A stretch of DNA of 64,000 nt. Source: Methanococcus aeolicus Nankai-3. GTDB lineage: Archaea > AGJL01 > Methanococci > Methanococcales > Methanococcaceae. Under the pieces are notes generated by a model, which ran no database searches, was not told where the DNA came from, and worked only from the letters and a program-made list of their open reading frames with translations. The translations under genes were made by a program, and so were the position numbers. Shown one piece after another: positions 60,575-64,000 of this stretch. The DNA lies in the NCBI RefSeq assembly GCF_000017185.1, contig NC_009635.1, positions 932,563 to 996,562 on the forward strand. The letters are read 5' to 3'. Numbering within the stretch: position 1 is the first letter of the stretch; the number at the start of each line of letters is the position of its first letter.

Positions 60575-60967
60575 TTATGCATAAATTGATATAATTAGTA
60601 TTACTATAATTAAAAAAAGTAATATTATTTTAATTCTCTTAACTCCTTTCAATTTATTCAAGGTATAATTTAGTTTATTCAAATTTACGCCCATCTTTTC
60701 ATAATTTTCAATAATATCTAATGAAATATCCTTTTTAATCAAATCATCCATTGTCTTAGAAGGAGCTCCTTTATTTCTTAGGTTTATAAATATATCTCTT
60801 GCCTTTTCTAAATCATAGTCATTTTCTATTAGTTTATTTATAACATCATCTGAAATATGTCTTTTCTTTAAATCTCCTACTGTCTTTCTTATCTTTGTTA
60901 AATAATCTACATTATTAGCGTTTTTAGTTATTTTAGATATAGAACTTTGAACTTTTAGATATTCCAT
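60575..60967 (-). CDS. Toxin-cassette N-terminal module with membrane-anchor tail (copy 1)
   Basis: Residues 8-60 are nearly identical to the N-terminal modules of the genes at 61686 and 63256 (SISKITKNANN, KKRHISDDVIN). The next part matches the 63256 gene further (LRNKGAPSKTMDDLIKKD). After about residue 105 it ends in one membrane helix (IILLFLIIVILIISIYA) instead of a nuclease domain. There is no binding site at the ATG; homology begins exactly there, so it is probably an orphan cassette produced by recombination. Confidence 0.55.
   Translation of the reverse strand: MEYLKVQSSISKITKNANNVDYLTKIRKTVGDLKKRHISDDVINKLIENDYDLEKARDIFINLRNKGAPSKTMDDLIKKDISLDIIENYEKMGVNLNKLNYTLNKLKGVKRIKIILLFLIIVILIISIYA
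60838..60967 (-). repeat. Cassette repeat, copy 1
   Basis: About 125 bp encoding the shared module (from ISKSS-like to ISDD-IN) recurs here, at 62128-62250 and at 63878-64000. Copies 1 and 3 remain similar for a further 70 bp. Copy 1 has lost one G and gained five bases near its 5' end. Confidence 0.8.
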
Positions 60968-61022
60968 TTGGATTATTTTATTTAATTATATAAATTATAC
61001 TAGATAAAAAAGAAAAAAATAG

Positions 61023-61670
61023 TCAAAATTCTGTTCCTAATAAATATTTAGAAACTTCTTTAACCTTATTAGTTAAAAAACTATGATTAAATGGATTTTC
61101 ATCTAATAATATTAAAAGACCTCCATCATCTAATTCTTCAACTTTATAAACTGGTGCAGATAAAATCCTATCCTTCCCAATGTTTTTAACAATCTTTGGA
61201 GATAATATCGTTAAGCCAGTTATTATTTTTGGCTTTCCTTCTTTAATAAGTTGTTCGTAAGTGGGAATATATTCATCTTCTAATTCTTCTCCATCGTAAT
61301 ATAAAACCATTAAAGGCGTTGTTTTTAAGTAAAGATTTTTTATAAGGTTAATTAGTTTATTTATTGAATTTACTGGCTGTCTCGATAAAGTGTAGAAAAA
61401 GGTTAATTCGAAAGAATTTTTTGAGATTAATAGGTCAAAACTACTATTTTCTACTGTAAAATTACTAATCAGTCCTGTATTGTATTTTGAAATCGATTCA
61501 CACACATTATTTAAGTTATCAGTATCAATATATATACAATCCGTTCCTACAGAAACAGCATCTAATTCTAAATCCGCCCCCAAATCCTCAATATATTTAA
61601 TTAGTTTGATAATATCCTGTTTATTCCATTTTTGTTTATTCAATATGTAATCTACACAATCGATAGTCAT
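61023..61670 (-). CDS. Predicted immunity protein for the cassette at 61686
   Basis: The 215-residue, overall acidic, soluble protein matches no family I recognise. It starts 15 bp after the toxin-like gene ends, with a proper GGCGAT binding site, whereas the toxin fragment itself has none. This is the usual toxin-then-immunity order. It contains LMVLYYDGEELEDEYIPTYEQL and a C-terminal LLILLDENPF. Confidence 0.5.
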   Translation of the reverse strand: MTIDCVDYILNKQKWNKQDIIKLIKYIEDLGADLELDAVSVGTDCIYIDTDNLNNVCESISKYNTGLISNFTVENSSFDLLISKNSFELTFFYTLSRQPVNSINKLINLIKNLYLKTTPLMVLYYDGEELEDEYIPTYEQLIKEGKPKIITGLTILSPKIVKNIGKDRILSAPVYKVEELDDGGLLILLDENPFNHSFLTNKVKEVSKYLLGTEF

Positions 61671-61685
61671 AATATCGCCATTTTA

Positions 61686-62536
61686 TTATGGTTTATACAC
61701 TACATACTTAGCTCCAAATTCATTTAATTTTCTAATAACATCATCATTTGGCTGTTCTCTAAAACAATACATCAATTCTTTATCGTGAGTTTTTGAATAA
61801 TCACTTAATTTTCTTAGTTGTTCTACAAATCTTTGCCATTTTCTGCTTCCATCTTTCACAATATCTTTACCTTTGCATTCAATAATCTTATTTGTGGTTT
61901 CAATATCTATTTCAGTCTCATATCCATAGGTCTTCTTATCTAATTTTTTAGACAACTCCACAATCTCATTAACATTACACTTTTCAGCAGCTACCATTGC
62001 CTCATACGGAGCTCCTGTATTTCCATTTTTAATACTTTTGAGTAATTCACTATATCCATCCACTTTTCTAAGTTTGCTTAAAGCATTATTTAGTTTTTCT
62101 AAGTCGATATCTTTATTTATATATTTATTTATAGCATCATCTGAAATATGTCTTTTCTTTAAATCTCCTATTGTCTTTCTTATCTTTGTTAAATCATTTA
62201 CATTATTAGCATTTTTAGTTATTTTAGCAATAGAACTTTTAGATATTCCCATCTTAGATAATTTATTTGTTTCATCTACTGCTTTTTTAAGAGCATCGTT
62301 TGGTTTGTTGCTGTTTTTGATGATGCTGTTTATTGTGCTTGTTTCTACTCTTTTATCTTTGAGTTTAGATATTCTGTTATCTATCCATCCAAGTTTTTTA
62401 TCATTTTTAACAGCATCTTTAAACAGCTTGTTAATATTCTCTGGTTCAACTCATTCATCTAAGAGATTAACAGCATTATCTGCAACTGTTTTTGGACTAT
62501 ATCCCTTACTCTCTTTCTTTGCTGACTCTTTGATTT
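61686..62536 (-). pseudogene. Orphan toxin cassette with PD-(D/E)XK-like C-terminus (copy 2)
   Basis: From 62252 on, an open frame of 188 residues has the shared module (1-45), a short linker, and a C-terminal nuclease-like domain: YETEIDIETTNKIIECKGKD with D116, E125 and K127. The same frame continues upstream to 62536 (KLGWIDNRISKLKDKRV and NKPNDALKKAVDETNKLSK) but is cut by one TGA at 62451-62453. It lacks an RBS and a proper 5' end, so it looks like the 3' part of a larger toxin gene. Confidence 0.6.
62128..62250 (-). repeat. Cassette repeat, copy 2
   Basis: Copy 2 is almost identical to copy 3 for its first 60 bases from the GGAATATCTAAAAGTTC end and diverges slowly after that. It marks the border between the constant module and the variable toxin end. 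Confidence 0.8.
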
Positions 62537-62611
62537 AAAAAAATAGATTAATTAAAAAATGTAATTTATTTGTTATGTTAGATAAAAATAGAATTAAGAT
62601 TTTAAAAAGAT

Positions 62612-63238
62612 TTATATCCAATCATCGTCCTCTTCCACTTCTGGAGCTACTGAGTTAGTATTAAGGATATATAAATAACACTTCCCTATTTTTTCAATTA
62701 ATTGTGGCTCTGTTAATATATCTGTTTCGTCCCATATTACTTTCTCTGGAATTTTTATATCTAAATCTTCTTTATACACAAATAACCACGGTAGTTTTGT
62801 AAAATTATCTGTTATATCTGATAAGAATTCTTTTGGATTTTTATATTTCTTTTTTTCTAACTTTATTTCATACTCCTCTATTGTATTATGAATACCTCCA
62901 AATCCAAATTCTGGCTGAATAAGTTCTATAACTTTTTTAACTGTATCTATAAGTATTTGAGTATTTTGCTTTGCTATTTGTTTTGCTTTTTCTATCGGAT
63001 ACTCATCTTCATAGAAATAGGAACAATACTTACTATAGTCTGTTAAAACTCCAACAATATAGTATTCTTCTCCAAATATATTCTCTACAATTGTTCCTTC
63101 AATTGTGGTGCGTATTCCCAAACCCGTATATATATTTGGCAACTTTTCATTTATTTCTTTCTTATAATTTTTAAGTATTTTTTCATATTTTTTAGGATTT
63201 TCTTTTGTATAAAAATTAATTAAAAGGTCTGAAGACAT
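62612..63238 (-). CDS. Predicted immunity protein for the cassette at 63256
   Basis: The 208-residue acidic protein (ending EVEEDDDWI) is not similar to the one at 61023 and matches no family I know. I chose ATG 63238, which follows a perfect GGGTGAT; the open frame begins four codons earlier. It lies 18 bp after the toxin-like gene. The position, size and acidity fit an immunity protein for a nuclease. Confidence 0.5.
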   Translation of the reverse strand: MSSDLLINFYTKENPKKYEKILKNYKKEINEKLPNIYTGLGIRTTIEGTIVENIFGEEYYIVGVLTDYSKYCSYFYEDEYPIEKAKQIAKQNTQILIDTVKKVIELIQPEFGFGGIHNTIEEYEIKLEKKKYKNPKEFLSDITDNFTKLPWLFVYKEDLDIKIPEKVIWDETDILTEPQLIEKIGKCYLYILNTNSVAPEVEEDDDWI

Positions 63239-63255
63239 GTTATCACCCATTACTT

Positions 63256-64000
63256 TTATAATTCATCTATATTTTTTACAATTATCTCTTTATCTGAAAC
63301 AAATGCGACTTTTTCTATATTATATTTTTTAAATATCTCTTTTGCATTTTTTACACTAATTTTAGAGTGTTTTGGAAATACAAGTATTCCTGTTTTACCT
63401 GTAGCTTCAATTTTTCTGTTTAATTGATTTGTCCAATCTCTTATATCTTTGTCACTTATTTTTTTACTTGGTTTTATATTTTTACATTCATACACCGCCT
63501 TATCCGTTAATGCATCTATTTCTTCCCTATTATGATTCATAGAAAACTTAATAACATTCTCTCCTTTATCTATTAATCTTGATGCTGTTTTTAGTTCAAA
63601 TGCTATATCGTTTGCCTTTTCGTTATTTTTTGCAATATCTCTTAATACCTTCTGCAACACATATTGACTTGGATTGTCAGGATTTTTTATACTTGAGAGT
63701 TTTTCTATATCTTTGAAATCAATTTTTCCTTTAAGGTATTGTAATGCAGATATTTCTTTTAAAGAATATTCTTTCTTAATCAAATCATCTATTATCTTCG
63801 CTGGAACTCCTTTATTTCTCAATTCTACAATAGTATCTTTCGCTTTTTCTAAATCATAACCTTTTTCTATTAACTCATTTATAGCATCATCTGAAATATG
63901 CCTTTTCTTTAAATTTCCAATGATTTTTCTTTGTTTTGTTAAATCATTTACATTATTAGCATTTTTAGTTATTTTAGCAATAGAACTTTTAGATATTCCC
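63256..64000 (-). CDS. Polymorphic toxin-like protein, C-terminal part (partial, runs off the window)
   Basis: The frame is open from the window edge to 63256, so at least 247 residues. It starts with the shared module (GISKSSIAKI through KKRHISDDAIN), continues with helical repeat-like segments (ELIEKGYDLEKAKD, LRNKGVPAKIIDDLIKKEYS), and ends with a domain containing REEIDALTDKAVYECKN and WTNQLNRKIEATGKTGILVF. The D..ECK pattern and following helix suggest a PD-(D/E)XK nuclease. The N-terminal delivery part must lie beyond 64000. Confidence 0.65.
   Translation of the reverse strand, partial: GISKSSIAKITKNANNVNDLTKQRKIIGNLKKRHISDDAINELIEKGYDLEKAKDTIVELRNKGVPAKIIDDLIKKEYSLKEISALQYLKGKIDFKDIEKLSSIKNPDNPSQYVLQKVLRDIAKNNEKANDIAFELKTASRLIDKGENVIKFSMNHNREEIDALTDKAVYECKNIKPSKKISDKDIRDWTNQLNRKIEATGKTGILVFPKHSKISVKNAKEIFKKYNIEKVAFVSDKEIIVKNIDEL
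63878..64000 (-). repeat. Cassette repeat, copy 3
   Basis: This copy ends exactly at the window edge with GGGAATATCTAAAAGTTC on the minus strand, the same point where copies 1 and 2 begin. Confidence 0.8.

Follow-up and report, generated by a model that had tools for sequence, protein, structure and literature searches.

A probable polymorphic toxin–immunity system with its own secreted carrier in the methanogen Methanococcus aeolicus Nankai-3

At one end of a 64,000-nucleotide stretch of the Methanococcus aeolicus Nankai-3 genome (contig NC_009635.1, positions 932,563 to 996,562; hereafter the window) lies an array of genes that is very probably an archaeal polymorphic toxin–immunity system with a secreted carrier of its own. 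The array occupies window positions 60575–64000 on the minus strand and contains three copies of one coding module, each with a different end (Table 1). A preliminary description of the window had put the module common to the three at about 45 residues (125 bp nearly identical in DNA); the module is there but is considerably longer, with the truncated copy at 62094–62530 matching nucleotides 377–813 of the full-length gene at 93% identity over 438 bp (E = 0), and the copy at 60725–60948 matching it at 83% identity over 228 bp (E = 1e-53), which excludes chance. As that description had it, the copy at the window edge is open and the others are 5'-truncated: the edge gene is intact (genome positions 995819–997219) and encodes 466 amino acids from a GTG or 462 from an alternative ATG that follows a Shine–Dalgarno-like GGGTGA, and the middle copy is an N-terminal remnant interrupted by a TGA (62451–62453) and, further upstream, a TAA, before it continues into a different tail. 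The third copy does end in a hydrophobic helix, as had been noted; there is no partner gene at its end, and it is probably a remnant. The D...E-C-K pattern seen in the other two ends also held up, both tails carrying an exact D-x8-ECK, and each tail is indeed followed closely by an unrelated acidic gene of about 210 codons: 17 bp, including a Shine–Dalgarno-like GGGTGAT, separate the stop of the type A toxin (63256) from the ATG of its putative immunity gene, ImmA (63238), and 15 bp on the same strand separate the stop of the type D toxin (61686) from the ATG of ImmD (61670).

The product of the edge gene consists of a repeat-rich N-terminal part of about 280 residues, the carrier, and a variable C-terminus. 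Its N-terminus, MLKKCFTILLAILLLASPVNA, is a textbook Sec signal peptide by a rule-based reading and hydropathy profile, and a signal peptide starts the intact main genes of this common carrier in every genome that bears them; beyond it, hydropathy reveals no membrane anchor in the intact copies, and a profile search of the carrier returned no Pfam match. The C-terminal half of the carrier contains repeats of ~30–34 residues. In self-alignment, the best score exceeds the shuffle maximum for a second full-length copy in the same genome (83 versus 68) and for the carrier of a related genome, G035 (79 versus 54); for the edge gene itself, the score of 49 lies under the shuffle maximum of 54. The carriers of G035 and another relative, G034, have one extra repeat. 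Tails start right after a repeat resembling INKLIEKGYDL, and 26–40 bp of the DNA of this repeat reappear at cassette starts across species, which makes the repeat a plausible crossover site.

The second full-length gene, of 480 amino acids, lies far from the window, at genome positions 468595–470037. Along its first 850 bp this gene matches the edge gene at 87% DNA identity, and beyond that point a 20-column identity profile shows the two to be unrelated; the tail of the second gene, type B, is a third C-terminus for this genome and is followed by an acidic 176-codon gene. A profile search for the carrier in 36 Methanococcales genomes found its N-terminus in five, with the relatives coming from the family of M. 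aeolicus and from one other family of the order; a sixth genome, G011, bears the same toxin–immunity pairs, but mounted on a carrier that is unrelated and has a dockerin domain. Tails A, B, and C (the last encountered in the sister loci) were found on intact carriers. In G006, a full-length type A toxin and ImmA are followed by a type C cassette, which is truncated, and by an orphan ImmC in addition, and G029, a Methanothermococcus metagenome-assembled genome, has a full-length type C toxin with ImmC, followed by B and C cassettes with their partners. In G034 a broken main gene precedes C, A, and B cassettes, and in G035 the carrier remains without a tail. The arms of the orphan cassettes in G029 and G034 measure tens to hundreds of bp.

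The pairing of tail and partner is strict. Toxin A and ImmA occur in the identical three genomes, ImmA always directly downstream; toxin C occurs in four genomes, with ImmC immediately downstream in all four; and the four genomes with toxin B likewise all have an ImmB-type gene downstream. Every intact full-length toxin (two in M. aeolicus and one each in G006, G029, and G011) has an intact partner. In G034, a frameshift breaks the main toxin gene and a transposase gene interrupts its ImmC (L027:8345–10114), a single case that fits loss of the antidote only once the toxin has been lost. We also considered homology between ImmA and ImmD and rejected it: a local similarity (E 3e-4) appeared with composition correction off, was non-collinear, and was judged to be compositional.

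The same tails recur on different carriers. The type B tail and ImmB of G011 are 62% and 80% identical, respectively, to their M. aeolicus counterparts, and the carrier of 627 amino acids is hydrophobic at its N-terminus and contains a dockerin domain (PF00404, E 5e-5, above the cut-off) and a Peripla_BP_2-like stretch; this locus suggests toxin display by cohesin–dockerin pairing in a methanogen. On the same contig of G011 (contig 138, L049:758–5938), the gene for the B tail carrier and ImmB precede additional immunity genes and a toxin C–ImmC pair. Outside the Methanococcales, relatives were found for tail C only: type C tails form the extreme C-termini of large haloarchaeal TSP3-repeat proteins of Halorussus (hhalign E 4.5e-16), each with a gene of ~174 codons 3–4 bp downstream. 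Two such proteins of Halorussus caseinilyticus (WP_276282764 and WP_276282689) have the same C tail on a carrier unrelated to ours. Two TSP3-repeat proteins encoded on plasmids of this species (L033:3504–5955 and L034:1347–5894) are 95–100% identical over most of their common body, whereas their toxin C tails have diverged and the small genes downstream differ; they form a haloarchaeal main-plus-truncated pair.

Cassette DNA is strikingly alike across family boundaries. The cassettes of G006 and G029 are 95.5% identical over 1001 bp and 99.4% over 709 bp, and those of G011 and G029 are 98.1% identical over 1190 bp; G029 is of another family than G006 and G011, and in the stretches compared among these three genomes no DNA alignment was found outside the arrays. 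By this measure, cassettes have evidently been transferred recently between two Methanococcales families. Since the same sets sit on other carriers in related methanogens, the whole looks like a weapon system against close relatives, with warheads traded between species. An orphan immunity gene without a toxin (L025:11557–12147) matches, at 99.7% DNA identity, the immunity gene that accompanies a Methanothermococcus toxin in the other family (L026:7305–7895); judged by this identity, the transfer across families is very recent. No integrase was seen in the loci that we read. The genes that flank the island in M. aeolicus, where they are 4481 bp apart, are separated by 578 bp in G034 and 751 bp in G035, with no toxin. 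At these island-free sites (L058 ~840–1417 and L059 ~875–1625), a gene of ~105 codons for a CGGC-type cysteine protein lies between ferredoxin-like and NikR-like genes; this small gene is absent from the corresponding place in M. aeolicus, where the neighbors of the array are metabolic and regulatory genes.

Table 1. Features of the array, in window coordinates
Feature	Position	Strand	Remarks
Full-length type A toxin gene, 3' part	63256..64000	-	Runs past the window edge to genome position 997219
Type A toxin domain, ~165 aa	63256..63753	-	PD-(D/E)XK-like by motif (E, EEID-x8-ECK, W..Q)
Putative immunity gene A (ImmA)	62612..63238	-	208 codons, pI 4.7
Homology arm, 5'-truncated copy of the carrier N-terminus	62094..62530	-	93% identical to the main gene; in-frame TGA at 62451-62453
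Orphan type D toxin cassette, 188-aa open reading frame	61686..62252	-	Tail ~61686-62054; EID-x8-ECKG motif, PD-(D/E)XK-like
Putative immunity gene D (ImmD)	61023..61670	-	215 codons, pI 4.7; only in the M. aeolicus genome among 36
Remnant E, carrier repeat module with a hydrophobic helix at its end	60575..60967	-	Arm 60725-60948, helix ~60578-60655

What kind of enzyme might the tails be? Tails A and D resemble PD-(D/E)XK nucleases in motif, and a nuclease is the likely enzyme class of both. Tail A, conserved at 76–82% in three genomes, keeps a glutamate, the EEID-x8-ECK motif, and a later glutamine; it has weak profile matches to Tox-REase-3 (PF15647, E 0.016) and PDDEXK_15 (E 0.03) and to phrog_244, a phage resolvase family (E 5e-5), all of which cover the D-x8-ECK region. 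Tail D has the same exact D-x8-ECK spacing, which occurs in two of 58 open reading frames in the window, a set from which the open edge gene is absent, and a weak PADLOC match to PbeA (E 0.001). A looser motif, D-x(6-12)-ExK, was dropped as nuclease evidence; it is worthless by itself because half of the open reading frames in the window (30 of 58) have it. The tails of the sister loci resemble BECR/EndoU RNases: tail B weakly matches PBECR1 (PF18809, E 0.0013), of the barnase/EndoU/colicin-like RNases, and tail C, through its G011 member, weakly matches EndoU_bacteria (PF14436, E 0.0016) and conserves H, RH, T, and P residues. Tails are basic, and their partners are mostly acidic. A PDB sequence search gave chance matches only, NCBIfam gave nothing useful for tails A and D, and no match was found among plasmids (edge-gene fragment and tail D), phages (tail D), or viral contigs (tails A and D and the carrier).

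How would such an array work? In the mechanism that we propose, the main gene would encode a Sec-exported carrier whose C-terminal ~110–180 residues are an exchangeable nuclease, DNase-like in types A and D and RNase-like in types B and C of the sister loci. The gene directly downstream would supply the matching acidic protein, which would bind the nuclease and block it in the producing cell and its kin. The 5'-truncated copies further downstream would be silent cassettes, each combining carrier repeat sequence, tens to several hundred bp of it, with another tail and, in the complete ones, an immunity gene for that tail; recombination by way of the common repeat sequence could then move a spare tail into the main gene, and the spare immunity genes would keep protecting the cell after the swap. 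The sequences themselves show the architecture, the export signal, different tails on one carrier, the same pairs on a second carrier, recent transfer between families, and an island-free site in two relatives; we infer the nuclease activity, its inhibition by the partner, and delivery into neighboring archaeal cells.

Several results weigh against this interpretation. All toxins and partners fall short of the curated Pfam cut-offs, single-sequence prediction gave poor models for tails A and D (predicted local distance difference test, pLDDT, scores of 66 and 55), and a fold search of the PDB gave no nuclease match. Type D and ImmD are confined to the M. aeolicus genome among the 36, the haloarchaeal and methanococcal ImmC proteins are not significantly similar (E 0.11) despite the same layout, and neither a delivery apparatus nor a processing protease of known type was recognized on the carrier.

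Three other explanations were weighed. The products might be secreted nucleases that scavenge extracellular DNA or RNA, with a barstar-like inhibitor shielding the producer only before export and the tails serving as substrate variants. The Sec signal, the lack of a delivery apparatus, and the nuclease-like profile matches, weak as they are, would all suit such a role, which nevertheless leaves unexplained why there are silent, 5'-truncated spare cassettes, immunity genes without a toxin (L025:11557–12147), and exchange between families of cassettes that are 95–99% identical; we consider it improbable. Silent donor cassettes and a repeat-based carrier would also be at home in a variable surface protein, one subject to antigenic or phase variation, against viruses for instance, in which the tails are binding domains and the partner genes have an unrelated role; the hypervariable VARTIG proteins of Thermococcales provide a precedent (PMC8416519). 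Basic tails strictly paired with mostly acidic partners, the weak matches of tails B and C to RNase toxins, and the lack of a membrane anchor beyond the signal peptide in intact copies argue otherwise, making this explanation more improbable still. Least probable of all is an intracellular toxin–antitoxin or abortive-infection defense locus: the tight toxin–partner gene pairs speak for it, as does the weak PADLOC match of tail D to PbeA, but the intact main genes with the common carrier begin with a signal peptide in every genome, and the carrier of G011 is hydrophobic at its N-terminus and includes a dockerin domain. An exported polymorphic toxin with a dedicated immunity protein is thus the interpretation that we favor.

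Systems of this general kind have precedents in bacteria. In contact-dependent inhibition (CDI; CdiA/CdiI) and Rhs systems, a main toxin is followed by its immunity gene and by displaced orphan modules still homologous to the main gene, and the array shares this layout. The preliminary description had compared the array with these systems and proposed to look for a large secreted or surface protein beyond the window edge. Toxin–partner pairs do move between carriers, and the protein carries a predicted export signal; however, at 462 amino acids it is not a large surface protein, and by domain tests it is neither CDI nor Rhs. Unlike CDI, the carrier has no filamentous hemagglutinin match, no adjacent transporter gene, and no visible VENN junction; unlike Rhs, it has no RHS match and no visible Rhs-core junction; and in contrast to both, the junction here lies in ~30–34-residue repeats on a short carrier. 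In other words, the array would function like CDI and Rhs, yet is a member of neither. Nor does it resemble the PVC or extracellular contractile injection system (eCIS) toxins: the carrier has no DUF4157-type metallopeptidase and there are no injection genes among the neighbors, the rest of the genome not having been searched for an injection system. Among toxin families, the likeness to PBECR1 and EndoU_bacteria belongs to tails B and C of the sister loci, outside the window, at matches under the curated cut-offs; the likeness of tail A to Tox-REase-3, PDDEXK_15, and phrog_244 is likewise below cut-offs. The nuclease-type ends of the preliminary description thus stand on motif and weak profile matches, with a fold that single-sequence structure prediction did not confirm.

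Archaea are not newcomers to this field. Makarova et al. reportedly predicted archaeal polymorphic toxin systems in 2019 (mBio). Polymorphic toxins of a few archaea are described in the available text of Zhang et al. 2012 (PMC3482391), a paper of 2019 (PMC6393860) showed loci of archaea that have colicin D and PD-DExK tails, and by 2021 many archaea were predicted to have polymorphic toxins, none then experimentally characterized, with nucleases said to be their commonest tails (PMC8416519); in M. maripaludis, inter-strain toxin genes including Rhs proteins have been noted (PMC11452385). The array shares with these predicted systems an exported multi-domain protein, an exchangeable nuclease C-terminus, an adjacent immunity gene, and spare cassettes, and its carrier differs from the archaeal carriers named in the available text of PMC3482391 (e.g. 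PVC-metallopeptidase). Given these predictions from 2012 to 2019, the kind is already known; what appears to be new, as the preliminary description had suspected of the families, is the family of the carrier and those of the immunity proteins, the junction within repeats, and the exchange between two carriers in methanogens. More tentatively, and with more doubt than conviction, we raise the possibility of an archaea-specific toxin class, in which a short, Sec-secreted, repeat-built carrier would deliver exchangeable nucleases across the archaeal envelope without an injection machine, and cassettes would be traded among methanogen families, also on dockerin carriers.

With four toxin–immunity types, a second carrier, and near-identical cassettes in two families, the Methanococcales, which include genetically tractable species, make both kin competition among archaea and the passage of secreted proteins across the archaeal envelope directly testable.
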